This document shows, piece by piece, positions 8,733-29,677 of a DNA stretch of 64,000 bases. The position numbers were made by a program, and so were the translations under genes. Source of the DNA: Bacteroidia bacterium (GTDB lineage: Bacteria; Bacteroidota; Bacteroidia; AKYH767-A; OLB10). The DNA lies in assembly GCA_016788065.1 (NCBI GenBank), contig JAEUTI010000089.1:1-64000 (forward strand). The letters are read 5' to 3'. Within the stretch, counting starts at the first letter, position 1, and the number at the start of each line of letters is the position of its first letter. The notes below the pieces were generated by a model, which was given only the letters and a program-made list of their open reading frames with translations, did not search any database and had not been told where the DNA came from.

Positions 8733-9668
8733 TCAGGCAAAAACTGCTTTTTCGGTTACTTCCTGCCAAACCATTTTCACACCTTGCTCCAATGAGATCC
8801 GATGTTTCCATCCTGCATTATGAATGGCAGTTACATCGAGCAATTTACGGGGTGTTCCATCAGGTTTGGATGGGTCAAAGCGAAGATTTCCGGTATAACC
8901 ACTAACCTCTTTTATCAGTTGAGCTAAATCGGCAATGGTAAGATCGACGCCGGTACCTATGTTAAAAAATCCTTCACCGCTATAGTTATTCATCAGAAAA
9001 TAGCATGCATCAGCCAGATCATCAACATGTAAAAATTCACGCATCGGTTTGCCACTTCCCCAGATTTCAACTTCGGGAGTTCCATTTTTAATGGCTTCAT
9101 AAAACTTGCGCATCAAAGCCGGCAATACGTGCGAGTTCTTTAAATCGTAATTATCGTTCGGGCCATATAAATTGGTTGGCATAACCGAAATGTAATCACA
9201 TCCATATTGCATTCGGAATGCTTCACACATTTTCAAACCTGCAATTTTTGCTATTGCATAAGGCTCGTTGGTTTGCTCCAGTGAACCCGTTAAAAGATAT
9301 TCCTCTTTAATAGGCTGGGGACACATTTTAGGGTAAATACAAGATGAGCCCAAAAACAGCAATTTCTTTACATTGTTTTCATACGATTGACGGATCACAT
9401 TGGACTGGATCATCAGATTTTCATAAAGAAAATCGGCGCGATAAGTATTATTGGCAACTATTCCTCCAACTTTCGCAGCTGCTAAAAAGACATATTCCGG
9501 TTTTTCATTCGTAAAAAACGATTGTACCGCCTGTTGATTCCTAAGATCAAGCTCTTTGGAAGTTTTGGTGATCAGATTGGTATAACCTTCTGCTTCCAGT
9601 TTCCTGACAATGGCAGAACCCACCATACCACGATGTCCTGCAATAAATATTTTGCTGTTACGATCCAA
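8733..9668 (-). CDS. fcl: GDP-L-fucose synthase
   Basis: Epimerises and reduces GDP-4-keto-6-deoxymannose to GDP-L-fucose with NADPH. It is 311 aa, an extended SDR with the nucleotide motif GHRGMVGSA (11-19) and catalytic Tyr137/Lys141 in EPYAIAKIAG. The family loops FLGSSCIYP and GSGKPMREFLHVDDLA are also present. It lies 57 bp downstream of gmd, giving the two-step pathway from GDP-mannose to GDP-fucose. The pair is divergent from the EPS locus, whose glycosyltransferases are the likely users of the nucleotide sugar. Confidence 0.96.
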   Translation of the reverse strand: MDRNSKIFIAGHRGMVGSAIVRKLEAEGYTNLITKTSKELDLRNQQAVQSFFTNEKPEYVFLAAAKVGGIVANNTYRADFLYENLMIQSNVIRQSYENNVKKLLFLGSSCIYPKMCPQPIKEEYLLTGSLEQTNEPYAIAKIAGLKMCEAFRMQYGCDYISVMPTNLYGPNDNYDLKNSHVLPALMRKFYEAIKNGTPEVEIWGSGKPMREFLHVDDLADACYFLMNNYSGEGFFNIGTGVDLTIADLAQLIKEVSGYTGNLRFDPSKPDGTPRKLLDVTAIHNAGWKHRISLEQGVKMVWQEVTEKAVFA

Positions 9669-9725
9669 CTTATATAATCTTTAAAATATTCTTAATCAAT
9701 TATTTAAAACTCGAAATCCCGAATT

Positions 9726-10841
9726 TTACCCTTCATTATAATTAATGATTTCATGACCACCTTCCTGGAGGTATTTATCTCTGCCAAAGAGTTTCAGGTC
9801 ATAAGCAACCATTTCTTTAACAATAGAATCGAGATCATGTTTAGGAGTCCATCCCAATTTAGTTTTTGCTTTAATCGGGTCACCAATCAGCAATTCAACC
9901 TCAGCGGGGCGATAATAATTTTTGTCGATTTTCATTACTTCCTTTCCAACCGGAACAGGATACAGCGGATTATTGGAAGCTTTAACAACTGCTACTTCAT
10001 TCTCTTCTTTACCAATAAATTCGAGTTCAACCCCAATCTCGGCAAATGCTTTAATAATAAAATCACGGACAGTAGTTGTAACACCGGTTGCTACTACAAA
10101 ATCTTCGGGAGTATCAACCTGCAACATCATCCACATAGCTTCCACATAATCTTTAGCATGGCCCCAGTCACGTTTCGCATCGATGTTTCCCATATAGACG
10201 CAATCTTGCAGACCAAGCGCGATGCGGGCAACAGCACGGGTAACTTTGCGGGTTACGAAAGTCTCTCCTCTGAGTGGTGATTCATGGTTGAAAAGGATAC
10301 CGTTCACTGCAAACATATCATAAGACTCGCGATAATTCACGATAATCCAGTAGCCATATAATTTAGCAACCGCATATGGTGAACGTGGATAAAATGGCGT
10401 AGTTTCTCTTTGAGGAATTTCCTGTACCAAACCATAAAGTTCGGAAGTAGATGCCTGATAAATCTTCGTTTTTTTAGTCAAACCCAGCAATCGCACGGCT
10501 TCCAGGATACGGAGCGTACCAATTCCATCTGCATTTGCGGTATATTCAGGGGTTTCGAAACTTACCTTCACGTGCGACATGGCACCGAGGTTATAAATTT
10601 CATCGGGTTGTACTTCCTGAATAATTCTGATAATATTCGTAGAGTCGGTCAAATCACCATAATGCAGTTTAAATTTGACATTCTTCTCATGCTGATCGTG
10701 GTATAAATGATCGACCCTTTGGGTGTTGAAAAGCGAGCTGCGGCGCTTGATTCCATGAACATGATACCCTTTTTCTAATAAGAGTTCTGCGAGATAAGCC
10801 CCGTCCTGACCTGTAATACCTGTAATTAATGCTGTTTTCAT
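9726..10841 (-). CDS. gmd: GDP-mannose 4,6-dehydratase
   Basis: First step of GDP-L-fucose synthesis, NADP-dependent dehydration of GDP-mannose. It is 371 aa with [12 protein letters not shown] (8-19), the catalytic STSE segment (131-134) and Tyr156/Lys160 in [12 protein letters not shown]. It also has the [16 protein letters not shown] stretch typical of Gmd. A spacing of 57 bp to fcl suggests co-transcription. The promoter region between gmd and the divergent Wzc-type gene (10842-11104) is shared, so fucose supply and polymer synthesis may be co-regulated. Confidence 0.96.
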
Positions 10842-11104: not shown

Positions 11105-13408
11105 ATGAGCAAACCCGTTACAAGCAGCGCCATCATTGATCAAAAGGACATTAAAAAAACCATTTCCCTGGTTCTAAAGAACTGGTATTGGTTTATACTT
11201 TTCCTGGGCCTGGGAATTGGTGGTTCCATCTTTTATTTATACAAAGCCACCAAATATTATGGTGCAACGGCCGAAATTCTGATTAAACCGCAGAAAAACG
11301 CATTCAAAGATGCACTCAGCGCCTCATTATCAACCGGTCCTTCAAAAGATGAAATTGCCAACGAAATCGAAGTACTGTCATCATCACGTCTGATTAATGA
11401 TGTTATCAGCAAACTGAATATTGATATTTCCTATTTTATTGAAGGCCGTATTAAAACCGGTGAAATCTACAAAGGCAAACCGTTTCTGGTTGATGGTAAA
11501 GTTTTGGATGCCACATTTTACGGAGTTCCATTCTTTGTAAATATTCTGGATAAACAAAAATACAAACTGACATTAGAGTTTGGAGCTTACAAATACAGCA
11601 AGATCCACAAGTTCGGAGAACCGGTGGTGAACGATAAATTTTCACTCATCATCAACAGCGATTCATCTATTGTTGGTAAGAACACCGTAAATCTTGCTGA
11701 AACAAGATACTTGTTTCGCATTAACGACCGTGCCTATCTGGTAAAAAAGTATAAGCAGTCACTGCAACTTTCTATGGGTGAAGAAGCTACTGTTATTGAA
11801 GCTTTCATTGAAGATGAAGTTCCTGAAAAAGCAGTTGACTTCCTGAAGGTACTAACTGAAATGTACCTGGAAAACTCCGTTTCTGTTCAGAAGGAAATTA
11901 ATGAAAACACATTAGCATTTATTGATGGTCAGCTGAAAGAAGTTGAAGACATTCTGAATGGTGTTGAGTCGAATCTGGAGCAATTCCAACGTTCCCGGAA
12001 TGCAGTAAATCCGGAAGGCGAACAGGGAGTTTATCTGCAACAAAAAGTTGATTTTGAAACGCAACGTGCCCAGTTAGGTATTCGCCTCCGTTCACTCGAT
12101 TATTTATATGAGCAGCTTACATCCGGAACCGATGGTGGCGCTATCAGTCCAGCCCTACTTGGTGATGCACCAGACCCTGCAATGGGTGCCGCTTTCACAG
12201 AATTAAGCGTATTGCAACAACGTAAAACAAACCTTTTATTCAGCAATACACCAAGCAGTCCGGTTGTTAAAGAAGTAGAGGCTCAATTATCAATTGCGCG
12301 TCAGAATCTGATTTCTATTGTGATGAACATGCGTAGAAATGTCACTGTACAAATCAATTCGCTTTCATCACAACTTGGACAATTTCAGGGGGCCATGAAC
12401 CAGATGCCATCAACTATCAGAGGCTTGGTAAACATTAACCGTAAGGTTGAAATTAATGAAAAGATTTACCTCTTCCTTTTGGAAACCAGAGCACAGACTG
12501 TAATTGAAAAGGCAGGAATTGTTGCTGATAAAAGCATTTTAGAGCCGGCAATTTCCACAGGTCTGGAGCGTCCGATTCAACAAAAAATTCTTCTTGGAGG
12601 AGTGGCAGTTGGCTTAGTGCTTTCATTTCTTGTAATATTCCTGAAAAGCATATTTTACAACTTCATCCATACTAAGGATGATCTTACCGAACTCACTACA
12701 CTTCCAATCATTGGTGTTATTGGCAAAAGTAAAGATGCCAAGACCGATTATCTGGTGGTGGACAAATTCCCGCAATCGCTCACCAGTGAAGCCTATCGCG
12801 TGGTTCGAACCAACCTTTCTTATTTTAGTCCGAAAGCCAGCAGCAAAGTGGTGTTATTTACCTCTTCGGTAGCCAGTGAAGGTAAAACGTTTAATGCTAT
12901 TAATACCGGAACTATTCTGGCAAAGACCAAGAAGAAGGTTGTGCTTGTAGATTTGGATTTGCATAAACCTAAACAGGCAAATGCATTCAACCTTATGAAC
13001 GATGTTGGGGTTACCTCCTATCTCGTTGGAAAATCGCGGTTAAGTGAAATCATTAAAGAAACACCAATTGAAAATCTGCAGGTAATACTCACAGGACCTC
13101 GTACTCCGAATGCTTCCGAACTCATTCTTGATCCGATGCTTGAGGAAATGATCAACGAATTGAAAACAATGTATGATTATGTGATCCTCGATACACCACC
13201 GGTTGGATTGCTTTCAGATGCATTAGCACTGATGAAATTCTCGGATCTGAATGTGTATGTATTAAAAGCAGGATTCTCTAAGAAAGATTTTGTTGATATC
13301 GCACATCAGATCGTTGAAAAAAATAATGTGAAACATTTGGTATTCCTTCTTAATAACGTGAATGTGAAAAACATTCCGGCAGGTTATGGTGGAGGTTATT
13401 ATAAATAA
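11105..13408 (+). CDS. wzc: Polysaccharide co-polymerase / bacterial tyrosine kinase (Wzc-like)
   Basis: 767 aa. An N-terminal Wzz domain with a membrane helix (about 27-47) and a long, partly coiled-coil periplasmic region are followed by a second helix near 500-518. A cytoplasmic BY-kinase domain completes it. In the kinase, Walker A is SVASEGKTFN (about 588-597), Walker A' is VVLVDLDLHKP and Walker B is YVILDTPPVGL. The C-terminus carries a short tyrosine cluster (GYGGGYYK), the likely autophosphorylation site. Such proteins control chain length and export in Wzy-dependent pathways. It is the first gene of the plus-strand EPS locus, followed after 27 bp by the ABC flippase gene. The usual partner, an SLBB-type outer-membrane export protein, is not in this window. 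Confidence 0.93.
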   Translation: MSKPVTSSAIIDQKDIKKTISLVLKNWYWFILFLGLGIGGSIFYLYKATKYYGATAEILIKPQKNAFKDALSASLSTGPSKDEIANEIEVLSSSRLINDVISKLNIDISYFIEGRIKTGEIYKGKPFLVDGKVLDATFYGVPFFVNILDKQKYKLTLEFGAYKYSKIHKFGEPVVNDKFSLIINSDSSIVGKNTVNLAETRYLFRINDRAYLVKKYKQSLQLSMGEEATVIEAFIEDEVPEKAVDFLKVLTEMYLENSVSVQKEINENTLAFIDGQLKEVEDILNGVESNLEQFQRSRNAVNPEGEQGVYLQQKVDFETQRAQLGIRLRSLDYLYEQLTSGTDGGAISPALLGDAPDPAMGAAFTELSVLQQRKTNLLFSNTPSSPVVKEVEAQLSIARQNLISIVMNMRRNVTVQINSLSSQLGQFQGAMNQMPSTIRGLVNINRKVEINEKIYLFLLETRAQTVIEKAGIVADKSILEPAISTGLERPIQQKILLGGVAVGLVLSFLVIFLKSIFYNFIHTKDDLTELTTLPIIGVIGKSKDAKTDYLVVDKFPQSLTSEAYRVVRTNLSYFSPKASSKVVLFTSSVASEGKTFNAINTGTILAKTKKKVVLVDLDLHKPKQANAFNLMNDVGVTSYLVGKSRLSEIIKETPIENLQVILTGPRTPNASELILDPMLEEMINELKTMYDYVILDTPPVGLLSDALALMKFSDLNVYVLKAGFSKKDFVDIAHQIVEKNNVKHLVFLLNNVNVKNIPAGYGGGYYK

Positions 13409-13435
13409 TCCGATTAATACCGGATGTATTAAATT

Positions 13436-15226
13436 ATGAGTGACGAAAATTTTGTTCAGCCATCTAATAGCTTTATAAATTCCATTAAGAGTGTCAGGAA
13501 ACACACCAATGGCGCACAAAAAAGGAAAATAGGAGCTCTTAGTATATTGGTATTCTTTTCAGCTGTAATGGATGTGGTTGGATTAGCCGCAGTGCTTCCT
13601 TTGATACAGGCCGGAACGGATACTAAAATGATCCACACCAACAAATACCTGAGTGCAGTTTATAATTATTTTGAATTCAGTACCGATAAATCATTCGTTC
13701 TGTTTTTAATTGGCTGTCTGCTGGCTTATTTTTTATTCAAAACTGCTTTCGGAATTTTTGTGAACTGGTTGCAGGCGAGACTCACTGCCGACATTGCAGT
13801 TTACATCACACAAAATCAATTCATCAAATATTACAAACTCGACTTCCTCGATTTCTCTGCCATCAAATCTTCTTTATTGATGCGGAATATTTTGTATAAT
13901 CCAACAAGCTATGTGCAATGGATCGTGCAACCGCTGACTATGATTTTGTCGGAGTTTATTATAGTACTTTTGATCATTGGTGCAATTGCCTATTACGATC
14001 TCTTCCTGTTCGGATTCATTTTGGTTACCATCGGACCTGCAACTTACCTGGTTTATTCTGCACTTAAGAAAAGAGGGACTGCCGTTGGTGTGGGCATCGA
14101 CAATGTTTTCCCTTATGCTTTGAGCAGTTTAACAGAAGCCATCAGTGGTTACATCGACATTAAACTGGCAGGTAAAGAAGATAATTATCGCAAACGTTAT
14201 CTCAAACATTTGAAAAATTATCAAGAGCTTCAGCAAAGTGCTTATTTGCTGAGCATGATTCCTATCAGGACCAACGAAATAATTGCATTGCTTGGAATTA
14301 TTCTGATTTTCATGTATGCTTTATTTTTAAGCGATGGCAGTGCTGATGTTTTGATTATGGTAGGAGCATTTGCTGCAGCAGCCTATCGTTTGATGCCTTC
14401 CATGAACCGGATTCTGAATTCATTCATGTACATCAACAAAAACCAGGTTTCCATTTATAACCTTGAAATTTTTGATGAACTGCTGAAAGAGGAAAATGAA
14501 AATCCCGATCCTGCACCGGTACCATTTAATTCTTCCATTAAATTCGATCGCATTTCATTTAGTTTTCCAAAATCCGATAAACAGATTTTAAAGAATCTCA
14601 CCTTTGAAGTGAAAAAAGGTGAAAAAATTGGATTTGTTGGTTCATCAGGATCAGGAAAAACTACCCTGATGAATATCTTGTTGCGTTTTTACAATGAAAA
14701 CAGCGGCCAAATACTGGTTGATGGTATTCCGTTAAGACCTTCTCAGAAACAATCGTGGAGAAACTTAATCGGGTATGTGAAGCAGGATATTTTCCTGTTG
14801 GATGGTTCCATTCGTGAAAACATCACTTTGGGCGATGCCAAGGTAGATGAAGAGCGTTTACAACGTTGCATCAAACAGGCTTCGCTCGATAAATTAATTG
14901 AAGGACTACCTGCCGGGGTGAATAGTCAAATCGGTGAAAAGGGAAATAACCTTTCAGGAGGTCAGCGGCAAAGAATTGGCATTGCCAGATCTTTGTATCG
15001 TAATGCAGAAATACTTATCTTTGATGAGGCAACGAGCGCGCTGGATAACAAGACTGAAAATGAGGTTACTGAGTCTATTGATTCCTTATCAGAAACCAAT
15101 AAAACCATATTTATAATCGCTCACCGGATCACCACATTACGTAATTGTGACCGGATTTATGAGTTGAAGAATGGTGAAATTTCAGGCGTGTATTCCTACA
15201 GAGAACTCGTTGAAAAAGTGCTTTAA
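13436..15226 (+). CDS. ABC-type lipid-linked oligosaccharide flippase (PglK/MsbA-like)
   Basis: 596-aa half-transporter with an N-terminal six-helix exporter domain (about 30-330) and a C-terminal nucleotide-binding domain. Walker A is GSSGSGKTT (about 402-410), the signature is LSGGQRQRIGIARSL (about 506-520), Walker B is ILIFDEATSALD, and the H-loop is IIAHR. Its place between the Wzc-like gene and the sugar-modifying genes, with no Wzx (MATE-fold) flippase nearby, suggests that it flips the lipid-linked repeat unit as PglK does. An alternative is transport of another lipid. It acts in the inner membrane as a homodimer. Confidence 0.88.
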   Translation: MSDENFVQPSNSFINSIKSVRKHTNGAQKRKIGALSILVFFSAVMDVVGLAAVLPLIQAGTDTKMIHTNKYLSAVYNYFEFSTDKSFVLFLIGCLLAYFLFKTAFGIFVNWLQARLTADIAVYITQNQFIKYYKLDFLDFSAIKSSLLMRNILYNPTSYVQWIVQPLTMILSEFIIVLLIIGAIAYYDLFLFGFILVTIGPATYLVYSALKKRGTAVGVGIDNVFPYALSSLTEAISGYIDIKLAGKEDNYRKRYLKHLKNYQELQQSAYLLSMIPIRTNEIIALLGIILIFMYALFLSDGSADVLIMVGAFAAAAYRLMPSMNRILNSFMYINKNQVSIYNLEIFDELLKEENENPDPAPVPFNSSIKFDRISFSFPKSDKQILKNLTFEVKKGEKIGFVGSSGSGKTTLMNILLRFYNENSGQILVDGIPLRPSQKQSWRNLIGYVKQDIFLLDGSIRENITLGDAKVDEERLQRCIKQASLDKLIEGLPAGVNSQIGEKGNNLSGGQRQRIGIARSLYRNAEILIFDEATSALDNKTENEVTESIDSLSETNKTIFIIAHRITTLRNCDRIYELKNGEISGVYSYRELVEKVL

Positions 15227-15243
15227 CAGCTTCCTTTCAACCA

Positions 15244-16374
15244 ATGCTCGAACGTATATTTACCCAGATAAGATTCCGCTTTTTTGATTTCAAAAGCAAA
15301 CAGCAGGATACTTCCCAGCCCGGAACAACGCACCTCAACAGGTCACTCAGATGGTTTAAAGCAAGTCTGCTCCCCGACGGTGGCGCCTCTGCTAAATATT
15401 CCATGATGACACATGAGGTAGCGCAAGGTTATCCAATGACCACTGCCATGTGGATTCCGGCGCTTTTAAAAATAAAGAATAAATATCCCGAAATTTACCA
15501 TGATGTAATGGGAACCACCGATATTACCGGTGATTTGGTTAACTGGGTTTTGCTCACACAGCGTCGTGATGGTACTTTCCCCGGTTCTTTCGGAGATTTC
15601 ATGAATCAGCCACCCCGCGTTTTTAATAACGGGGTTATCATCCGAAACCTGCTTCGGTATTACGAAACTAATCAAAGAGAAGATGTTCTTAATGCCTGCA
15701 TTCAAAGTGCGGAATGGCTATTGAAAGTACAATCGAATGATGGCAGCTGGCGGCAGTTTACATTTCACCAATTAAGCTCCAATACAATTACCGGTGCTGC
15801 TTTGATCCGACTCGGACAAATTTGTAATGAACCAAAATATGTCGAGGCAGGAGAAAAAAATATACGATTTGCCATAGGTTTACAGAGTGAAAATGGCTAT
15901 TTCAGGGGGAACGGTTTTGACAGTGCTTCGAGTGCTTATACTATTACCATTGGCTATGCATTAAATGGAATTTTGCAGGCCGCTGAATTAACAGGGAATG
16001 AAAATTATGTCAAATCCGCACTAAACGGACTTGTTCCTGTATTAAACTTAACTCGGAAAGATGGCTTTTTGGTAGGTGAAATTGATGAACAGTTCCGGTC
16101 CCAATCGAGTTTTACCTGCTTGCCCGGAAATGCACTTTTAGCAATGGCATCTTACCATTTATCGAAAATGACCGGAAACTCCGATTTGAAGCTCCGAGGT
16201 GACCTTTTGACCGATTACCTCAAATCGCGTCAGATGGATTCCCAAACTCCTACCATTTCGGGTGGAATATCAGGCTCCTGGCCAATAAGCGGCAATTACT
16301 GCTCCTATGAAATTCCCAGTTGGGCAGTCAGGTATTTTACCGAAGCCCTGCTTTTGCAGGATGAATTGAAGTAA
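15244..16374 (+). CDS. Alpha/alpha-toroid (terpenoid-cyclase-like fold) protein of the EPS locus, function unknown
   Basis: 376 aa, no signal peptide or membrane segment. The sequence is a series of helix pairs with repeated QxxDG-like turns: LTQRRDGTFPG, VQSNDGSWRQF and LQSENGYFRGNGFD. These are typical of alpha/alpha barrels such as terpenoid cyclases, uronyl epimerase C-terminal domains and some polysaccharide hydrolases or lyases. I cannot assign a family. The absence of a DDxD-type cyclase motif speaks against a true terpene cyclase. It lies 17 bp after the flippase gene and 125 bp before wecB, so a role in sugar or polymer modification is inferred from position only. The 125-bp gap after it shows only a weak GCTGA/TCAGC repeat. 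Confidence 0.65.
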   Translation: MLERIFTQIRFRFFDFKSKQQDTSQPGTTHLNRSLRWFKASLLPDGGASAKYSMMTHEVAQGYPMTTAMWIPALLKIKNKYPEIYHDVMGTTDITGDLVNWVLLTQRRDGTFPGSFGDFMNQPPRVFNNGVIIRNLLRYYETNQREDVLNACIQSAEWLLKVQSNDGSWRQFTFHQLSSNTITGAALIRLGQICNEPKYVEAGEKNIRFAIGLQSENGYFRGNGFDSASSAYTITIGYALNGILQAAELTGNENYVKSALNGLVPVLNLTRKDGFLVGEIDEQFRSQSSFTCLPGNALLAMASYHLSKMTGNSDLKLRGDLLTDYLKSRQMDSQTPTISGGISGSWPISGNYCSYEIPSWAVRYFTEALLLQDELK

Positions 16375-16499
16375 GTAGCTGAATATCAGCACCTCTAAAT
16401 CCATTTAAAAATAAAACAATTTTACCTATTCTACGTAAAATTCGAACCCTTCATTTCGTTGGGAATTGATAATTTTACACTTTAAACCTGCTCACTATT

Positions 16500-17630
16500 A
16501 TGTGCAAGATTCTGATCGTTGTTGGTACAAGACCAAATTTTATTAAGGTTACCCAATTTAAAAAGGTTAACGAGCAATTGGGAAGCCCTTTTGATATAAA
16601 GATCGTTCATACCGGTCAGCACTATGACGATAAAATGGCTGATGTATTTTTCCGTCAGTTTGAATTGACTCCCGATTATTTCCTGAACATACCTGCTGAT
16701 TCCGCCAACACACAAATGGCAGAAATTATGCTTCGCCTGGAAAAGGTAGCAAAAGAATTTAATCCATCTTTAATGATGGTTGTTGGAGATGTAAACTCAA
16801 CATTTGCCGCTGCAATTACAGCTAATAAAATGGGCCTTAAAATAGCTCATATTGAAAGTGGTTTACGCAGCAATGATCGCACCATGCCTGAGGAAATAAA
16901 CCGTTTGCTGACCGATGAAATTACTGATTATTTCTTCGTTACAGAACAAAGTGGCTGGGATCATCTTATCGCAGAAAACAAACCTAAAGACTCCCTCTTT
17001 TTTGTTGGGAATACCATGATTGATACACTGGTTGCTTTCGAACATAAAATTCAGAAAGATGAAGTGCTTACTAAACTTGGAATTAAAAAAGACCAGTTTG
17101 CACTCATGACCATGCATCGCCCTGCAACAGTTGATTTTAAAGAAGGCCTTACCAAACTGATCGATATTATAGATTTTATCACTGAAAGTATGCATCTCGT
17201 TTTCCCAATTCACCCAAGAACTACGGGCAAATTGGAGAGCTTCGGATTGATGAACAGAATACGTGATAATAAGAAACTAATTCTTACCGAACCATTAGAT
17301 TATTTTGCTTTTCAAAAACTAACATCCGACTGTAAATTTGTAATCACCGACAGTGGTGGAATTCAGGAAGAATCAACATTCCGCAGAATACCTTGTTTGA
17401 CATTACGACCTAATACTGAGCGACCATCCACAATTACTATTGGAACCAATGAACTGGTGCCTTTTGATGTGACTATAGTGAAAGAAAAGATTGAAAATAT
17501 AAAAGCCGGCAAACATAAAAAAGGTGAAATCCCTCCTTTCTGGGATGGAGATTCCACTCGCAGGATTCTGGAAGTTTGTAAAGTACTTTTTGCAGATGAA
17601 CTTAATAAAAAATCTATTTTCAGCATCTGA
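16500..17630 (+). CDS. wecB: UDP-N-acetylglucosamine 2-epimerase (non-hydrolysing)
   Basis: Interconverts UDP-GlcNAc and UDP-ManNAc, supplying ManNAc residues. It is 376 aa, GT-B fold, beginning CKILIVVGTRPNFIK. Family motifs are AHIESGLRSNDRTMPEEINR (two catalytic acids), the MHRPATVD histidine and TDSGGIQEESTFRRIPCLTL. The next gene starts 3 bp downstream. No UDP-ManNAc dehydrogenase is seen nearby, so the sugar may be used as ManNAc itself. A 125-bp gap precedes the gene, longer than most in this locus, and could hold an internal promoter, although I see no good -7 box. Confidence 0.95.
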   Translation: MCKILIVVGTRPNFIKVTQFKKVNEQLGSPFDIKIVHTGQHYDDKMADVFFRQFELTPDYFLNIPADSANTQMAEIMLRLEKVAKEFNPSLMMVVGDVNSTFAAAITANKMGLKIAHIESGLRSNDRTMPEEINRLLTDEITDYFFVTEQSGWDHLIAENKPKDSLFFVGNTMIDTLVAFEHKIQKDEVLTKLGIKKDQFALMTMHRPATVDFKEGLTKLIDIIDFITESMHLVFPIHPRTTGKLESFGLMNRIRDNKKLILTEPLDYFAFQKLTSDCKFVITDSGGIQEESTFRRIPCLTLRPNTERPSTITIGTNELVPFDVTIVKEKIENIKAGKHKKGEIPPFWDGDSTRRILEVCKVLFADELNKKSIFSI

Positions 17631-17633
17631 TCT

Positions 17634-18638
17634 ATGAAAGTACTAAATCATCTGAAACCGGCAGATCATCACATTTTATCTCAGATAAGTGATAATTGGC
17701 CCTTTCAATTTGTGTCAGAATTTACCCGCTTTCATAAATACTATTTTAATGAAACGGTGAACATCATTTATGATGAAGAGTTGAATGCCTACATGCCTTT
17801 GCGCATTTTGGATATGAAGTTGTTTGCACCTGCTCAAATTTTGTATGCTCCCTTGAGGGAAAGTATGGAGTTGTCGAAAGAGGAACAAATGCAATTCTTT
17901 AATAAACTAATCCGATTGCTACAAAACCAGGGCGGATGTGAACGTTTGGTGCAGCCTCATCCATACAGTATTCTTTCTGCAATTCCTGAAGGAGCAAAAT
18001 ATTGTGATTTCGGAACTTACGTGGTCGATCTCGAGAATCAGACCATCGAACAAATACTCGAAAAATTCCATCCTAAATACCAAAAGGCTGTTACTCACTC
18101 TGAAAAGAATGGTGCAGTGGTGAAAATCGGTAAAGAATGTCTTAACGATTTCTTTATGATTTATAAAAGCACTATGGAGAGAGCCGGACTACATCTGGAT
18201 GAATTTACCTATTTTCAATCGCTTTACGATTATCTGGGTGAAAACAGAATCAGCTGTGGTGTAGTCTATGATCAGGATGAACCAATTAGTGGTATCTTTG
18301 TTATTCATACATTATACGGCGCCTTCCTGACTCATGCCGGCACACGTGGTGATTCTAAACTCTATGGTGCAGCGAAGTTGCTGAACCTCGAAATGATGCG
18401 ACATCTGAAGGAAAAAGGTGTAAAGAAATATGACTTCGTTGGTGTCCGCTTAAAAAATAACAATCCTGCATTAGAAGGAATATTCCGCTTCAAGAAAGGA
18501 TTTGGAGGTGACCTTAAAGAGGGATACCTTTGGAAAATCGATATTTTACCACTGAAAGCCAAAGCTTACGATCTGATGGTAAAGCTTAAATCCGGAAATG
18601 ATAAATTAACTGATATTATTGATCAGGTGAACACCTGA
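17634..18638 (+). CDS. FemAB-like / GNAT-fold acyl or aminoacyl transferase
   Basis: 334 aa, of the GNAT (Acetyltransf_6)/FemAB superfamily. Visible family features are PKYQKAVTHSEKNGAVVKIG in the middle and GIFVIHTLYGAFLTHAGTRG with MMRHLKEKGVKKYDFVGVRL in the second half. The end has the FRFKKGFGGDLKEGY motif common to FemAB-like proteins of polysaccharide clusters. Known members use aminoacyl-tRNA for peptidoglycan bridges; those in EPS loci are presumed to attach an acyl or amino acid group to a sugar. The specific donor and acceptor are unknown. It is tightly coupled to wecB. Confidence 0.8.
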   Translation: MKVLNHLKPADHHILSQISDNWPFQFVSEFTRFHKYYFNETVNIIYDEELNAYMPLRILDMKLFAPAQILYAPLRESMELSKEEQMQFFNKLIRLLQNQGGCERLVQPHPYSILSAIPEGAKYCDFGTYVVDLENQTIEQILEKFHPKYQKAVTHSEKNGAVVKIGKECLNDFFMIYKSTMERAGLHLDEFTYFQSLYDYLGENRISCGVVYDQDEPISGIFVIHTLYGAFLTHAGTRGDSKLYGAAKLLNLEMMRHLKEKGVKKYDFVGVRLKNNNPALEGIFRFKKGFGGDLKEGYLWKIDILPLKAKAYDLMVKLKSGNDKLTDIIDQVNT

Positions 18639-18659
18639 TAACCTAAACCTTGCTCTGGA

Positions 18660-19871
18660 ATGCCTGTCCCGGTTAATAAAAATTTACACATACTAATTAT
18701 GCCTTCCTGGTATAAGTCGCCTGAAACTCCGGTTTTAGGAACTTTCTTTGAAGAACAGGCTCGTGCATTGCAAAAAGAAGGATATACAGTTGGTGTAATC
18801 TATCCTGAATATACTCCTCCGGGCGAATTATTCTCCAGCAAGAATAAGGAACGCCTCGATTTTTATATGGACAAAGGGATTCCAACCTTTAATATTAAAA
18901 CTCAGGCCGGAATTCCTAAATTACGCCGACTCAGTTATCGTCAATACAGTAAGGCTGTAAATGATGTTTTTGATGAATATGTGAAAAATTTTGGCAAACC
19001 TGATCTTATTCATGCACACTCCGTTTTTCATGCAGGAATTGCAGGATTTCAGATTGCCAAATTGCATAAGATTCCATTCATCATTACCGAACACCTCACT
19101 GCTTACCTCATGGGTTACATCAACAATAAAGTTGATATTGAAGTAGCGCGGGAAATATTTGAATATGCTGATGGTTCGCTTATTGTAAGTCATAACTTCA
19201 GAAAAGATCTGGAAAAACAACTTGATCTGCCTGAAAATACTTTCAAGGTAATTCACAATCTGGTAAATGAATTGTTCTTCAATTCCTATTTGCCGAAAAC
19301 CTATAGTGGCCCTGAAGAAACTTTCCGGTTCTTTACCAATTCGTTTCTGTTGCCAAGAAAAAATATCAGATTGATTATTGACGCCGTAAAAATTCTACTC
19401 GATAAAGGACTTAATGTGCATCTTACCATAGGTGGTGACGGACCAATGAATGAAACTTTGCGGGAGTATGTAAAATTCCTTGGACTGGAAAGTAAAATTC
19501 ATTTCACAGGAAAACTCTGGCGTGATGAAGTCAAGACCGAAATCGATAACAGCCATGCGTTTGTGCTGGCCAGTCAATATGAAACCTTTGGTGTGGTGCT
19601 TATCGAAAGCCTTGCTTGTGGTCGCCCTGTGGTATGCACCGATTCCGGTGGCCCCCGGGATTTCGTTCATAAAGAACAAGGGGTAATCGTAAAAGAACAC
19701 GAACCTGAAGCTATGGCTAAAGGAATGGAACATGTGATTCAGAATTATAACAGCTATAATCAGAAAGAACTAATTTCTTATTGCCGCGAAAACTTTAATG
19801 AGCATAAAATTGCCAGCGAAATGATGGAAATGTATCACAACGTTCTAAGCAAAAGAGTGATCTATTCCTGA
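18660..19871 (+). CDS. Glycosyltransferase family 4-type
   Basis: 403 aa, GT-B fold. The N-terminal acceptor domain begins HILIMPSWYKSPETPVLGTF and contains DLIHAHSVFHAGIAG. The donor-binding domain has GGDGPMNETLREYVKFLGLE and the EX7E-type motif YETFGVVLIESLACGRPVVC, typical of retaining GT4 enzymes using nucleotide-diphospho sugars. It is one of six glycosyltransferases in the locus, and the sugar transferred cannot be deduced. Gene spacing is 21 bp upstream and 23 bp downstream, consistent with one operon. Confidence 0.92.
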   Translation: MPVPVNKNLHILIMPSWYKSPETPVLGTFFEEQARALQKEGYTVGVIYPEYTPPGELFSSKNKERLDFYMDKGIPTFNIKTQAGIPKLRRLSYRQYSKAVNDVFDEYVKNFGKPDLIHAHSVFHAGIAGFQIAKLHKIPFIITEHLTAYLMGYINNKVDIEVAREIFEYADGSLIVSHNFRKDLEKQLDLPENTFKVIHNLVNELFFNSYLPKTYSGPEETFRFFTNSFLLPRKNIRLIIDAVKILLDKGLNVHLTIGGDGPMNETLREYVKFLGLESKIHFTGKLWRDEVKTEIDNSHAFVLASQYETFGVVLIESLACGRPVVCTDSGGPRDFVHKEQGVIVKEHEPEAMAKGMEHVIQNYNSYNQKELISYCRENFNEHKIASEMMEMYHNVLSKRVIYS

Positions 19872-19894
19872 TATTTTTTATCCCTTTAAATGAT

Positions 19895-20941
19895 ATGCAA
19901 AAGCAACTGCTGGTTACTTTCGATTATGAACTTTTTTTAGGCAATCGCAGTGGCCATATTCACGATTGCATGATTGAGCCAACTAACCGGTTGATGGCAA
20001 TCATGGCAAAACATAAAATCCGCTCTGTATTTTTTGTGGATACTACATACTTGTTGAGGTTAAAGAAACAGGCAGAAAATTCTACTCAATGCGCTGCTGA
20101 TTTCAAAACCGTAGCTACTCAATTAACCGATCTGGTGAAACAAGGTCACTTTGTGTATCCGCATGTCCATCCGCATTGGCTGGATGCCATTTACGATGAA
20201 AAAACCAATCAGTGGCAACTGAATGACACTGCCAAATATCGGTTTCACAACATCTCCGATTCAGAAAAAGCAATGGTTTTCAACGGATCAGTAAAGATCC
20301 TCGAAGAAATCCTGCACCCCTCCTTCCCCGATTACAAAGTAAACGCCTATCGTGCCGGTGGTTGGTGTATTCAGCCTTTCTCCGATTTTAAACCTTATTT
20401 TCATCAAAATAAAATCGAATACGAATTCAGCGTTCTGGGAGGAATTTACCAGTTTACCGATGCCCAATATTTCGACTTTTCCAATGCGCCTCAAAAAACC
20501 ATTTACAGGTTCAACGATGACGTTTGTGTTCCCGACCCAAATGGCCCTTTCACACAGTACAATATTAGCTCTATACCATTGTCTAACAACAAGTTAATGC
20601 TAAATAAGCTGTGGCTCAAGTTATTGTACAAAATCAAGGGTGATCACACTTTCAACAAAGGCGAAGGACAACCATCCAGGATTTTGAATGGTATAAAACC
20701 CGTTTCTGATAAAGGCCATGACCTTAGCGATACGCACTGGGAGCGGATTTCAGTCGAATTGCTGACAGCTGTTAAGATGAGTGCCTACAAGAATTTCCTC
20801 GATCAGAACAAATACATGCACTTTATCTCCCATCCAAAAATGATCACCAACCATAATCTGGTAGTTTTCGACAATTTCCTGGATTGGGCGTTTGAAAAGT
20901 ATTCTGTGAGTACCGACTTTCATAGTATGCTTCCTGAATAA
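19895..20941 (+). CDS. Polysaccharide deacetylase-like (NodB-superfamily) protein
   Basis: 348 aa, cytoplasmic by the absence of a signal peptide. The N-terminal LLVTFDYELFLGN has the motif-1 Asp (D10), and RSVFFVDTTYLL follows. The metal-site histidines are in FVYPHVHPHWLD (H90, H92, H94), and YRAGGWCIQPF is a further conserved block. This matches the divergent polysaccharide-deacetylase family seen in Bacteroidota capsule clusters rather than secreted chitin deacetylases. The reaction may be N-deacetylation of a lipid-linked or nucleotide sugar; the substrate is unknown. It lies between two glycosyltransferase genes. Confidence 0.75.
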   Translation: MQKQLLVTFDYELFLGNRSGHIHDCMIEPTNRLMAIMAKHKIRSVFFVDTTYLLRLKKQAENSTQCAADFKTVATQLTDLVKQGHFVYPHVHPHWLDAIYDEKTNQWQLNDTAKYRFHNISDSEKAMVFNGSVKILEEILHPSFPDYKVNAYRAGGWCIQPFSDFKPYFHQNKIEYEFSVLGGIYQFTDAQYFDFSNAPQKTIYRFNDDVCVPDPNGPFTQYNISSIPLSNNKLMLNKLWLKLLYKIKGDHTFNKGEGQPSRILNGIKPVSDKGHDLSDTHWERISVELLTAVKMSAYKNFLDQNKYMHFISHPKMITNHNLVVFDNFLDWAFEKYSVSTDFHSMLPE

Positions 20942-20992
20942 TTTTGAGGCGAAACTGCAACCTTTATTCTGTTTAGTTGTAAATGTATTCCT

Positions 20993-22135
20993 ATGATTTA
21001 CCTGACCTATAATGATCAGCCTTCCGGCGTGTTTTCGAGCCAGGTAAACGACGTGTGCAATTATCTGAATAAAACTACTGATGCCAGAATCAAGCTGGTA
21101 GCCATCATTTCATTGCACCAGTTCATGGAAAACCGTCGCAAAATCAGGAAAGAAGTTCCGGATGCACTGGTTTTGCCAGCACTTCCGAAAGCAAAATATT
21201 GGAAGTTCAGTATTTTGGTTGTGGGCTTGATTTGCCTGCTAACCGGCCAACGACAAATTATTGCCAGAAATATCATGGCAACTCTGATAGCTTTGAAACT
21301 CAAGAAAGCAGGTCTGGTAAAAAAAGTCTGTCTGGATGGCCGTGGTGCCATTGCTGCGGAATGGAACGAATATCAGGTTGTTCCCGACGAGAATATGAAA
21401 AAAGCGATTTTCGGTCAGGAAAAAGAAGCTGTTCTTGAAAGTGATTTCCGGATTGCTGTTTCTTCCAAACTGGTGAATTACTGGAAAACATCGTTTGGTT
21501 ACTCAGGCAACAATCATGTGGTCATTCCTTGTACACTGGGCAGCGATTTCAAAGTTCCGGAATTTACCGACAGTGCGATTACAAAGGCTGCAGCTGCACA
21601 AGGATTTGCCAAAGATGATTTGGTAATGATTTATTCAGGATCAACTGCAGGATGGCAATCATTTGCTGTATTGGGAGATATACTGGGGAAAGTACTGAAA
21701 GAAAATCCGACTCACCGACTTTTATTTCTCGCCAAAGAAGATGAGAATATCAGCAAAATGAAAGCCGATTTCCCCGGACAGGTAACCAACAAATGGGTTG
21801 GTCATAAAGAAGTTCAGCAAGTACTTATGGCCGGCGATTTTGGGATCTTATACCGGGAAGACAGCGTCACCAATCAGGTAGCGTCGCCTACCAAATTTGC
21901 CGAATATCTGGCAGCAGGGTTGCCTGTAATTATTTCTGATAATCTGGGTGATTATTCCGATTTTGTGAAAAATCATCAATGCGGAAATGTTATTGGTCCT
22001 GGTCAACAAATTACACTTGCCAAAACCGGATCTGCCAGCAAACTACGAATGGCAAAACTGGCAGAAACACATTTCACCAAGAAGTCACAACTGGAGCAAT
22101 ACAACAAACTGATTGCTTTCATGAATAAAAACTGA
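20993..22135 (+). CDS. Glycosyltransferase (GT-B fold)
   Basis: 380 aa. It begins MIYLTYNDQPSGVFSSQV and has the GT-B donor-site segment SPTKFAEYLAAGLPVIISDN, with GDFGILYREDSVTNQ before it. The centre contains VKKVCLDGRGAIAAEWNEY. It belongs to the GT4/GT1-like family in a broad sense, with less typical N-terminal features than its neighbours. The sugar and acceptor are unknown. It is separated by 51 bp from the deacetylase-like gene and by 23 bp from the epimerase gene. Confidence 0.85.
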   Translation: MIYLTYNDQPSGVFSSQVNDVCNYLNKTTDARIKLVAIISLHQFMENRRKIRKEVPDALVLPALPKAKYWKFSILVVGLICLLTGQRQIIARNIMATLIALKLKKAGLVKKVCLDGRGAIAAEWNEYQVVPDENMKKAIFGQEKEAVLESDFRIAVSSKLVNYWKTSFGYSGNNHVVIPCTLGSDFKVPEFTDSAITKAAAAQGFAKDDLVMIYSGSTAGWQSFAVLGDILGKVLKENPTHRLLFLAKEDENISKMKADFPGQVTNKWVGHKEVQQVLMAGDFGILYREDSVTNQVASPTKFAEYLAAGLPVIISDNLGDYSDFVKNHQCGNVIGPGQQITLAKTGSASKLRMAKLAETHFTKKSQLEQYNKLIAFMNKN

Positions 22136-22158
22136 AACATTTAAATGCCCAATATACT

Positions 22159-23064
22159 ATGAGTAAGATCTTAATTACCGGAGGAGCCGGTTTCATCGGT
22201 TCAGCAGTTATCCGTCATCTGCAACAATTCAATAACGAAATATTTGTTATTGATAATCTCTCATTTGGAAATCGTGAATTCATTTCCGTTCCTGATGCTA
22301 ATTTTTTTCATGAGGATATTCTTAACCGGGATCGCATGGTTAAAATAATTGGAAATATTAAACCCGATTATGTGATTCATCTTGCTGCGGTGCATTTTAT
22401 CCCCTATTGCAATGAACATCCTTATGAATCGAGTAACATCAACATCCGCGGAACCATGCATATTCTGGAAGCTGCGCGACTTGCAGGTGTACAAAAAGTA
22501 TTCTTTGCTTCTACAGCAGCTGTTTATCCTATTTATGATGAAGCAGTAACTGAACAACACGTAGTTGGTCCACTCGATATTTACGGACTTTCAAAGTTAA
22601 CCGGTGAACATTTATGCAATGAATTCCATTTGATGACAGGTATTCCGACTGTGATCTGCAGATTCTTCAATGCTTTCGGTCCGAACGAAACCAATCCACA
22701 CCTGATCCCAGAAATTCAAAAACAAATCTTAGGTGGTAACAGAAAAATAAAATTAGGAAACCTGACTCCAAAAAGAGATTTCATTCATACTTATGACATG
22801 GCAAATGCCGTTCATACTTTGCTTGATAAAACTGCTTCTGGTATTCATACATACAATTTGGGTCGCGGCATCGAGTATTCAGTTACTGAAATTGTAGATG
22901 CATTCTCGGAAGCAATTGGTGAAAAAATAGAAATTGAAGTTGATCCTGCCAGAGTCCGTAAAGTGGAAAGAATGCACCTGCTTGCTGATGTCACCAAACT
23001 TAAATCGCTTGGATGGCAACCTAAAACAGGAATTGAAGACGGCATCAGAACACTGGTAGAATAA
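22159..23064 (+). CDS. NAD-dependent nucleotide-sugar epimerase (UDP-glucose 4-epimerase-like)
   Basis: 301 aa, an extended SDR with the dinucleotide motif TGGAGFIGS (7-15) and catalytic Tyr142/Lys146 in DIYGLSKLTGEH. The substrate-binding segment CRFFNAFGPNETNPHLIPE and the KLGNLTPKRDFIHTYDMANA block are typical of nucleotide-sugar epimerases and dehydratases. It probably makes the galacto-configured or a related sugar for the EPS. The exact specificity (UDP-Glc, UDP-GlcNAc or UDP-GlcA) is not resolved. The next glycosyltransferase starts 1 bp downstream. Confidence 0.9.
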   Translation: MSKILITGGAGFIGSAVIRHLQQFNNEIFVIDNLSFGNREFISVPDANFFHEDILNRDRMVKIIGNIKPDYVIHLAAVHFIPYCNEHPYESSNINIRGTMHILEAARLAGVQKVFFASTAAVYPIYDEAVTEQHVVGPLDIYGLSKLTGEHLCNEFHLMTGIPTVICRFFNAFGPNETNPHLIPEIQKQILGGNRKIKLGNLTPKRDFIHTYDMANAVHTLLDKTASGIHTYNLGRGIEYSVTEIVDAFSEAIGEKIEIEVDPARVRKVERMHLLADVTKLKSLGWQPKTGIEDGIRTLVE

Positions 23065-23065
23065 T

Positions 23066-24178
23066 ATGAAATCATCAAAACCACAGGTTATTTTTTGCAC
23101 CGACGGAATTTTCCCGCTGGCTGTAGGTGGCATGCAACGTCATTCCAGATTGCTGATTGAGGAACTGGCCGCTATGGGCGGGCTGGAACTCATCGTTATT
23201 CATCCACATGCCGGCCAATCGGTTTTCAATAACCCCGAAATAAAGGAAATAGCTTTAACTCCCGTTCAAACCAGCAAACGGTATTTGATCAATTGCTACA
23301 ATTATTCGAAACAGGTTCTGGAAATTCTGCTTCAGTATCCGCATGCAGTCATCTACTCACAAGGATTATCTGTCTGGCATGGAATCGGTCAGGTATCGAA
23401 ACGCCTGATTGTAAATCCTCACGGTCTGGAACCTTATCAGACGCTTTCATTAAAAGATAAGCTGCTGGGAACACCTTTCCGGTTGATTTTCAACCACCTT
23501 TTCCGCAATGCAACCCATGTTGTATCGTTGGGTGGCCGGTTAACCGGGATATTGAATGGACGATGCAGGAATGTGGTTACACTGCCAAATGCAGTAAATG
23601 TTCCTGAACCCATCATTAGAAAGTTTGATAATGTACCTTTACAATTCCTTTTTGTGGGCCGATTTGCCTTCAACAAAGGAATAAATATACTTGCCGAAGC
23701 GGTTAAATCTCTGAATGAAGATGGCTATGGCGATAAAATGGTATTCAATCTGGTAGGAAAAGGTCCGTTGTTTGACGAATACAAGAAAGTCTACAACTTC
23801 AATAATCTCAACTACCTGGGTTTTGCCGATGATGACAAATTAAATGAGCTCTACAAAACAAATGATATGTTTGTTTTGCCAACGTTGTTTGAAGGTATGC
23901 CTACAGTAGTGTTGGAAGCGATGGCTCATGGAATGCCGATTATTGTAACCGATGTGGGTGCAACACTTGAGATGGTTGACGACAAAAATGGTTTTATAAT
24001 CGATAAAAACAGTGTTGATTCTCTGAAGGAAAATCTTCTGAAATATTATCATACGACTGCTGAAGAAAGAAAAAATCTGTCAAAGGCATCTTATGAAAAA
24101 GTGAAAAATAACTTTACGTGGAAAATAGTTGCGGCTAAACATTACCGTTTGTTCGAAACTGTTTACGCCACAACCTGA
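23066..24178 (+). CDS. Glycosyltransferase family 4-type
   Basis: 370 aa, GT-B fold. The N-terminus FPLAVGGMQRHSRLLIEELA carries the glycine-rich loop of GT4 enzymes. The donor domain has FLFVGRFAFNKGINILAEA and the EX7E motif in LFEGMPTVVLEAMAHGMPII. One base separates it from the epimerase gene and 3 bp from the polymerase-like gene, consistent with translational coupling. The donor sugar is unknown; it might use the product of the adjacent epimerase. Confidence 0.92.
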   Translation: MKSSKPQVIFCTDGIFPLAVGGMQRHSRLLIEELAAMGGLELIVIHPHAGQSVFNNPEIKEIALTPVQTSKRYLINCYNYSKQVLEILLQYPHAVIYSQGLSVWHGIGQVSKRLIVNPHGLEPYQTLSLKDKLLGTPFRLIFNHLFRNATHVVSLGGRLTGILNGRCRNVVTLPNAVNVPEPIIRKFDNVPLQFLFVGRFAFNKGINILAEAVKSLNEDGYGDKMVFNLVGKGPLFDEYKKVYNFNNLNYLGFADDDKLNELYKTNDMFVLPTLFEGMPTVVLEAMAHGMPIIVTDVGATLEMVDDKNGFIIDKNSVDSLKENLLKYYHTTAEERKNLSKASYEKVKNNFTWKIVAAKHYRLFETVYATT

Positions 24179-24181
24179 TGC

Positions 24182-25543
24182 ATGAATGAATTCCTGAAAC
24201 GTAATCTCCAGTTTGTAGTGATGCTGCTCATTTGGGTGGTATCCGGTTTTGTGGCTTCCCCGGTAGCTGTTGGAGTAGTTGCGCTTTCTGTTATACTTCT
24301 GAAAAGAAAAGATATGTTCCCCGAATTAATTATCGGTTTCATATTTATTCTCATCCTTTCCGATAGTCGCCAATATCAACTGGAATTCGCCAAGAAGGTA
24401 AAAGATATCTACCTGATCCTGCTGGCCGCTTTCTATTTCTTCGACCGAAAGCAATTCAATTTTAAAAATGCCATGGTCATTCCGTTTATCCCATTTATTA
24501 TCTGGGGATTTATCGTGGTCTTTCGAAGTCCGGAAATGCAAATTGCATTTATGAAAACGCTTTCATACGGATTGCTCTATCTGGTAATACCTGCCTATTT
24601 CACGAAAGCATTCCGCGATAAAGGAGCTATCTTTTTGAAAGACTTCATCATGTTCGTATCACTGCTATTCATGATTGGTGTAGCGCTTATTGTCCTTGCT
24701 CCCAACTTCGTGTTTCTGGCTGGCCGCTTTAGCGGGATATTAGGGAACCCGAATGGTTTGGGAATATTTACTGTACTGGCTCTTATCCTTACCGTTTGTA
24801 CACAAATCAAATTTCCAAATCTGTTCACCCGAAATGAACTGATCATGATTTATACATTCATGGCACTTTCGGCTATCCTTTCGGGTTCCAGAAATACGCT
24901 GATGTGTATTTTTATATTTCTCGTATTCACCAAATTTTACAAGATATCATACTGGTATGGATTCATTGCGGTAATTATTGCAGCTATGCTTTATCAGGTG
25001 GTCTTCTCCAATCTTCCAACAATTCTGGAAGCACTTGGTCTTGCAAAAGCATTGCGGGCCGATACACTCGAAAATGGTTCAGGAAGGATGGTGGCCTGGT
25101 TGTTTGCATTGAGCAAGTTGAATTCCGACATAAAACTGTTTATGTTTGGAGGAGGTTTCTCATTCGACGAATATCTATATTACATCAATTACACCATGCT
25201 AAGTGCAATGGGCCATCAAGGAGGTGTTCACAATACCTATCTTGCTCTTTGGCTCAATACCGGAATAATTGGGCTGGCTTTATGGCTGGTAGGATTTTTT
25301 CGCTCCGTTTTCAAAGCGGTTACCGTTTCCTACACAGCATTTCCAATGATGTATGCAGTAATATTTTCAGCAACCTTTGAAGCATGGTTGATGGGATCAC
25401 TGAACCCATTCCACATCATGTTCCTTTTTGTACTTACTCTGATCACAACAAATACATCTGATTTTGCCGGAGAACAACTTCCGGCCATAACAACAGCAGA
25501 TATTCCTGCTTCGGAAGAATCTGAAAAACCAGGCAATAACTGA
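24182..25543 (+). CDS. O-antigen polymerase/ligase-like membrane protein (Wzy/WaaL family)
   Basis: 453 aa with about ten to twelve predicted membrane helices and a hydrophilic C-terminal tail. A large extracytoplasmic loop before the last helices contains NGSGRMVAWLFALSKL and then GHQGGVHNTYLALWLNTGII. The HN motif followed by a GxxG turn is characteristic of the Wzy_C/O-antigen ligase family. In this context it is the best candidate polymerase for the repeat unit flipped by the upstream ABC transporter. Ligase activity is an alternative. Sequence divergence in this family is high, so the assignment rests on topology, this motif and position. Confidence 0.85.
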   Translation: MNEFLKRNLQFVVMLLIWVVSGFVASPVAVGVVALSVILLKRKDMFPELIIGFIFILILSDSRQYQLEFAKKVKDIYLILLAAFYFFDRKQFNFKNAMVIPFIPFIIWGFIVVFRSPEMQIAFMKTLSYGLLYLVIPAYFTKAFRDKGAIFLKDFIMFVSLLFMIGVALIVLAPNFVFLAGRFSGILGNPNGLGIFTVLALILTVCTQIKFPNLFTRNELIMIYTFMALSAILSGSRNTLMCIFIFLVFTKFYKISYWYGFIAVIIAAMLYQVVFSNLPTILEALGLAKALRADTLENGSGRMVAWLFALSKLNSDIKLFMFGGGFSFDEYLYYINYTMLSAMGHQGGVHNTYLALWLNTGIIGLALWLVGFFRSVFKAVTVSYTAFPMMYAVIFSATFEAWLMGSLNPFHIMFLFVLTLITTNTSDFAGEQLPAITTADIPASEESEKPGNN

Positions 25544-25547
25544 TATC

Positions 25548-26708: not shown

Positions 26709-26725
26709 TTAAGATAGTAGATTAT

Positions 26726-27799: not shown

Positions 27800-27804
27800 T
27801 CCCT

Positions 27805-29673: not shown

Positions 29674-29677
29674 TATC

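Follow-up and report, generated by a model that had tools for sequence, protein, structure and literature searches.

The glycan operon and the toroid gene

The window analysed here is a stretch of 64,000 nucleotides from the genome of a Bacteroidia bacterium (contig JAEUTI010000089.1, forward strand), in which a glycan-biosynthesis operon extends from 11105 to 30238. The gene under study, designated the toroid gene, lies inside this operon on the plus strand, from the ATG at 15244 to the stop codon at 16374, and its 376 codons contain no internal stop. The open reading frame is real and not a chance product, because full-length homologues exist in unrelated genomes, and it is present as a single copy in the whole genome. 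The locus comprises the following features.

8733..10841, minus strand: GDP-fucose pathway pair, a GDP-mannose dehydratase and an epimerase-type gene (Pfam)
11105..13408, plus strand: Wzc-type chain-length/kinase protein, the first gene of the operon (Pfam Wzz, GNVR, AAA_31)
13436..15226, plus strand: ABC exporter, the 5′ border of the exchangeable slot described below (Pfam ABC_tran)
15244..16374, plus strand: toroid protein, 376 amino acids (open reading frame, AlphaFold2 model, homologues)
16500..17630, plus strand: WecB-type UDP-GlcNAc 2-epimerase, the 3′ border of the slot (Pfam Epimerase_2, 303.6 bits; neighbour in related loci)
17634..18638, plus strand: FemAB-like acyl/aminoacyl transferase of the same conserved operon (Pfam FemAB; matched in 20 of 24 genomes of the family)
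18660..30238, plus strand: remaining glycan operon (Pfam)

A first-pass annotation of this DNA had described a 376-residue protein encoded in an exopolysaccharide (EPS) operon, and this description holds, as the frame is intact and the surrounding glycan operon is supported by Pfam matches. It had also placed the gene directly after a flippase gene. The toroid gene does follow an ABC gene directly, starting 17 bases 3′ of it and ending 125 bases 5′ of the wecB-type gene, but the designation of the ABC gene as a flippase is presumptive. The ABC ATPase domain of this neighbour scores above the Pfam cut-off and its ABC membrane domain below (24.6 versus 28 bits), and the gene is matched at a level of at least 1e-80 in 23 of the 24 genomes of the bacterial family to which the window belongs. 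The GDP-fucose pair is divergent from the glycan operon and syntenic in relatives. The distal part of the operon (18660..30238) contains glycosyltransferases, an NAD-dependent epimerase, a Wzy_C polymerase/ligase, an asparagine-synthase-like gene and a hexapeptide protein; the sole gene of this part that gave no Pfam match (19895-20941) is a conserved operon gene of 348 amino acids, the start of which resembles NodB-type deacetylases by eye only.

The gap between the toroid and wecB-type genes (16375-16499) spans 125 bases, versus −4 to 44 bases in six related loci, and it folds somewhat better than shuffled sequences (z −2.4). Promoter-like sites near the toroid gene were not above shuffles (two versus a shuffle mean of 4.1), and terminator-like sites numbered four versus 1.5 in shuffles.

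Predicted fold and the wider family

In the Pfam search, the window protein stayed below the cut-offs of GH88 (PF07470; 20.2 versus 26.6 bits) and SQHop_cyclase_C (20.1 versus 26.1 bits), and no other family passed; in NCBIfam, the best score was 20.4 bits against a cut-off of 322.7 bits. PF07221 (AGE superfamily) and PF06662 (D-glucuronyl C5-epimerase) were both absent among the Pfam families found up to E 1 for the window protein. PF06662 was matched at E 0.001 or better by 26 of the 50 alignment members, and the SQHop_cyclase_C cut-off was passed by some typical relatives, such as that of L106 at 32.0. In the PDB, no sequence matched the window protein better than E 0.19.

The AlphaFold2 model, calculated from an alignment of the window protein and 49 relatives, is an all-helical toroid (pLDDT 95.5, pTM 0.93), in agreement with the alpha/alpha toroid suggested in the first-pass annotation. 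The repeated QxxDG-like turns named there are also present, as QRRDG (106-110), QSNDG (163-167) and QSENG (214-218, with N for D). For the structural matches, the values refer to realigned chains, and matches within Z 1 of each other were counted as tied. The top match was the uncharacterised structure 7tem (Z 32.6), accompanied by the GH88 structure 3wiw (Z 31.4, rmsd 2.9, 325 residues) and cellobiose 2-epimerase 9l8i (Z 31.4, rmsd 3.2, 337 residues); drimenyl diphosphate synthase was found at Z about 27. The model of a typical family member (L058, pLDDT 96.0) likewise has the GH88 and AGE groups near the top. Because both groups rank so high, the predicted barrel is of a type common among sugar enzymes and names no reaction, and the earlier statement that no motif assigns a reaction is confirmed by profile searches and fold comparison alike. 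Among viral structures, nothing specific matched the window model. The N-terminal helix was also considered as an amphipathic membrane anchor, a candidate that was dropped since its moment of 0.39 was attained by 37% of shuffles.

The window protein belongs to a widespread family of (alpha/alpha)6-barrel proteins from exopolysaccharide and glycan loci, and this family has no fitting Pfam or NCBIfam model of its own. Both the full-length sequence relationship to the family, which is marked by the motifs YPETTGY ... PNW, and the location in a glycan-biosynthesis locus were found for the window protein. An even draw of genomes from the phylum gave 13 matches among 395, the own genome counted; five of the matches are full-length (26-30% identity) and the other seven partial. 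An order-wide search gave matches in 10 of 42 genomes, every one in the family of the window. A tblastn search reached as far as two haloarchaeal plasmids, of Haladaptatus and Halobellus, with relatives at 30.0% (E 2e-30) and 25.6% identity over 94% of the query; both polysaccharide loci carry sulfatase and wecB genes, and one carries a heparinase-type gene. A scan of species genomes for the family motifs yielded at least 569 relatives among at least 595 pattern matches. The 79 loci kept from it, a sample biased toward query-like sequences, are distributed over Pseudomonadota (30), Methanobacteriota (11), Cyanobacteriota (7) and others. With the window protein alone as query, the scans of viruses and phages and a first scan of genomes gave no relatives, and neither did the viral scan with alignment A2; the GH88 and AGE searches (61 genomes) gave comparison proteins only. 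Two further proteins were observed. An open reading frame of 1134 amino acids (L018:7314-10718) has a C-terminal toroid behind stretches that look radical-SAM- and methyltransferase-like by eye, and a more distant toroid-like frame in another Bacteroidota genome (L022:7528-8724) adjoins a wecB-like gene.

The literature search gave no description of the toroid family among the matches listed. A misannotation of relatives as delta-aminolevulinic acid dehydratase was not confirmed by this search.

A formyltransferase homologue is present in 31 of the 79 toroid loci, and its position is narrowly defined: it forms one fusion protein with the toroid in 6 of 79 loci (L046, L048, L049, L050, L054 and L076), is the next gene downstream in 22 of 77, and accounts for 4 of 871 genes at other offsets. 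The fusions come from Halobacteria (four), Latescibacterota (one) and Acidobacteriota (one), and 16 of the 22 downstream cases are in Pseudomonadota; because of this clustering by phylum, the independent events are fewer than the counts. As called, the reading frames of the toroid and the downstream formyltransferase overlap in 21 of 22 cases, which is partly an artefact of choosing the earliest start codon. In the formyltransferase fold, the N-x-H and DTG motifs are catalytic. Both occur in 7 of the 10 partner sequences printed, and three Halorubrum fusions have Y-H-H instead. Asparagine-synthase genes (30 of 79 loci), wecB (12 of 79) and heparinase-type genes (9 of 79) are further neighbours, and a frequent neighbour at −1, the representative of which gave no Pfam match, is presumably PaaK/CapK-like.

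From these gene partners, typical members would perform a tailoring step on a sugar amine or carboxyl group. They are probably cytosolic enzymes that tailor a sugar or lipid-linked glycan before export, and in several phyla they would be coupled to the formyltransferase. The pairing of toroid and formyltransferase seems to be undescribed in the literature searched, among the matches listed. It ties a protein family of bacteria and archaea to formyltransferases by fusion or tight adjacency in surface-glycan loci, and it leads to the specific prediction of a tailoring step linked to N-formylation. The window genome and three genomes of the related group g180 contain just two formyltransferases apiece, and this partner is therefore not at work in their loci; it is also absent beside the g180 orthologues that have kept the six residues considered next.

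Exchanged polar residues and the operon slot

In the AlphaFold2 model, the family motifs start the helices at 64, 126, 178, 233, 293 and 359, that is, every second helix. In the (alpha/alpha) toroid fold, every second helix is an inner helix, and from this helix order the six polar positions E65, Q131, R182, H234, Q298 and N359 of the family presumably lie in the barrel centre. The window protein has M, V, I, I, L and S at these positions (plus strand; counts refer to the 79 pattern-found loci and to 8 relatives that tblastn recovered independently of the motif pattern).

15436..15438, plus strand: codon 65, Met versus family Glu (YPETTGY), start of helix 64-80 (Glu in 79/79 and 8/8)
15634..15636, plus strand: codon 131, Val versus family Gln (FNTGQ), start of helix 126-143 (Gln in 77/79 and 8/8)
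15787..15789, plus strand: codon 182, Ile versus family Arg (TRxAW), start of helix 178-194 (Arg in 73/79 and 8/8)
15943..15945, plus strand: codon 234, Ile versus family His (HTIAY), start of helix 233-250 (His in 79/79 and 8/8)
16135..16137, plus strand: codon 298, Leu versus family Gln (CLTGNAQ), start of helix 293-310 (Gln in 79/79 and 8/8)
16318..16320, plus strand: codon 359, Ser versus family Asn (PNW), start of helix 359-374 (Asn in 78/79 and 8/8)

All six residues occur together in 70 of the 79 pattern-found loci, where the near-invariance of E65 and N359 is partly due to selection, as both lie inside the search patterns. At columns of at least 92% conservation, the window protein keeps 1 of 10 polar versus 23 of 36 other residues (Fisher p 0.0036, descriptive only); three intact orthologues from the same operon position (L024-L026, g180, 45-47% identical to the window protein) keep 8, 9 and 8 of these 10. 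The same three orthologues retain all six residues (EQRHQN), and in a fourth, which is partial, the five covered positions are likewise unchanged. The copies of groups g176 and g172 read ELISLG, RINSLG and RIISIG, and thus the loss of residues is not confined to the window. Judged by these residues, the window protein is a sequence relative, but not a typical, presumably active member, of the EPS-toroid family. Since all six polar residues are exchanged, and five have given way to Met or an aliphatic side chain, the ancestral reaction has most likely been lost.

A possible but rather doubtful alternative is that the protein remains catalytic, its active site or substrate having changed and its pocket having turned from polar to largely aliphatic. 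Such an enzyme might act on another, perhaps lipid-bearing substrate through C292, Y238, E356, R363 or His 57/175, a version that we likewise regard as somewhat improbable. The fold and frame are kept under continuing constraint, C292 and Y238 are retained in the window copy, and positions 131, 182 and 298 are aliphatic also in most g172/g176 copies, which indicates a direction rather than random decay. However, no new conserved polar set was found, in a comparison of only two same-genus genomes, one of them with 34 codons. The three g172/g176 copies moreover have Ser or Tyr at C292 and differ at H234 and E65, and His 57, His 175 and other histidines of the window protein are not conserved in relatives.

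The place between the ABC exporter and wecB was surveyed in the 24 genomes of the family. This slot contains the toroid in nine genomes (G000, G395, G396, G397, G407, G414 and G415-G417; in G395, only its start is present, at a contig end) and an MBOAT O-acyltransferase in six (G398, G399, G405, G409, G410 and G412), and it is empty in seven (G400-G404, G408 and G413). In the other two, there are no downstream genes (G406) or no ABC match (G411). Pfam supports the MBOAT identity in 3 of 6; with one of these three as reference, the other five proteins, two Pfam-tested ones among them, are 59-79% identical to it. In the six MBOAT loci (L171:7543-9957, L172, L173, L165, L166 and L176), a weakly DltD-like partner was seen in five. 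MBOAT genes are found elsewhere too in toroid-bearing genomes, so that the exchange is one of place and not proof of equal function. We propose that the slot carries a dispensable tailoring function in this lineage. Because the typical toroid, the residue-stripped toroid, an O-acyltransferase cassette or nothing occupies one slot of the same operon, this natural experiment makes EPS chemistry directly comparable with slot content.

These results bear on the remaining proposals of the first-pass annotation. A glycan-modifying step fits the wider family and the exchange with an O-acyltransferase, but catalysis of it by the window copy is doubtful in view of the six lost residues. Conservation in related EPS loci, on which that reading had been made to depend, is partial: a toroid occupies the slot in 9 of 24 genomes, and the slot is empty or refilled in 13 of 24. 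The original observation stands, and its interpretation is supported in part.

The seven slot copies that were aligned group together in a single clade (100/100). The position of the window copy within it depends on the columns used: with all columns (47 rows) it groups with g172/g176 (98/87), and after removal of 20 conserved columns (33 rows) with g180 (93/72), so that one or two residue losses are both possible.

The window toroid looks constrained, with thin within-genus data of 34 codons: in these first codons of the toroid, the same-genus comparison gave six synonymous and two non-synonymous differences, and in the 597 codons of the ABC gene, 88 and five. Compared with two g180 genomes, the window shows 46% identity in the toroid and 54-55% in the ABC gene, and FemAB and a glycosyltransferase are 54% identical to those of one g180 genome. 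The dN from the window to its orthologue is 0.53-0.55 for the toroid versus 0.39-0.40 for the ABC gene, and over nine pairs the toroid dN exceeds that of the ABC gene by a factor of 1.3 to 2.8, with synonymous sites near or beyond saturation throughout.

This faster evolution than that of the neighbours would also fit a gene that is being lost, in which a dispensable tailoring step gave up its key residues first and its frame next. Seven of the 24 genomes have nothing in the slot; one of them is G408, which is sister to the window in the five-gene operon tree and has a typical toroid in another locus. In G414, the toroid frame (L036, about 11761-12913) is broken within a homopolymer run, which is either real or an assembly error, and the copies of G415-G417 are intact. 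We nevertheless consider decay unlikely, given the intact 376-codon frame and confident fold of the window copy, the two non-synonymous versus six synonymous changes in the sole within-genus stretch, and 46% identity to the g180 copies despite saturated synonymous sites.

The explanation that we favour, with about an even chance of being correct, is that of a pseudoenzyme: the window protein would be a member of a glycan-locus family that has been retained although it is probably non-catalytic. Its fold and reading frame would be held by selection, and on this basis we suggest a role in binding or presenting: the barrel may bind or present the glycan or a partner of the ABC exporter. Alternatively, it may be a reaction-switched tailoring protein of this family. 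The missing formyltransferase partner counts against the favoured explanation, as do the evolution of the toroid, faster than that of its neighbours throughout, and the empty slot of G408, which also fit slow decay. A more elaborate version, which we offer tentatively and regard as unlikely in its entirety, is that the typical family is a glycan-tailoring enzyme working with a sugar formyltransferase, fused or translationally coupled to it in several phyla, and that the non-catalytic barrel of the window lineage, with its aliphatic pocket, binds a polyprenyl-linked glycan and passes it to the adjacent ABC exporter. Should the window protein prove to be a pseudoenzyme, EPS export would offer a case in which an enzyme fold has been conserved for binding.

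Comparison with known alpha/alpha-barrel systems

The unsaturated glucuronyl hydrolases of GH88/GH105 (3wiw, 1vd5 and YteR 1nc5) share the (alpha/alpha)6 fold over nearly the whole chain, at 14% identity and with a Pfam score below the cut-off. A profile alignment with a GH88-family protein covers 75 columns only (probability 63). GH88 enzymes use a catalytic Asp pair, but the wider toroid family has no conserved Asp pair at the starts of its presumed inner helices. AlgL and BcsZ are alpha/alpha barrels of the periplasm. Both BcsZ (GH8) and AlgL (alginate lyase) are carbohydrate enzymes coded in EPS operons, where hydrolases and lyases are common (PMC7710045). Neither was found as a homologue of the window protein in the Pfam and PDB sequence searches, and both act on the finished polymer. 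A conventional, active hydrolase or lyase, trimming the glycan as these two do, would agree with the GH88-type fold, but it is very unlikely: the GH88 score is below the cut-off, none of the six family polar residues is present, and the window protein has no signal peptide evident by eye, which counts against a periplasmic trimming enzyme.

The AGE superfamily (N-acylglucosamine and cellobiose 2-epimerases 9l8i, 8wbu and 7d5g) shares the fold at 11-13% identity, and 8wbu is the nearest Foldseek match of a typical toroid-family member. The AGE mechanism uses two catalytic His residues, whereas typical toroid members have a single invariant one, H234, which is replaced in the window copy.

Terpenoid cyclases (squalene-hopene cyclase and drimenyl diphosphate synthase) share the repeat turns and the toroid. 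A terpenoid-cyclase-like enzyme acting on the lipid carrier would account for the weak SQHop_cyclase_C similarity, a profile score of 45.7 bits to 3sqc and the drimenyl diphosphate synthase fold match. The sequence similarity, however, lies mainly in the QxxDG-type repeat stretches and below the Pfam and NCBIfam cut-offs, the terpenoid-cyclase motif DxDD is absent, and the family context is sugar chemistry, so that we regard such an enzyme as most improbable. The action on the lipid carrier suggested in the first-pass annotation accordingly finds no direct support. The Haladaptatus and Halobellus plasmid proteins, named 'prenyltransferase/squalene oxidase repeat-containing protein' by PGAP, are true relatives from glycan loci; they keep all six polar residues, and the window copy keeps none.
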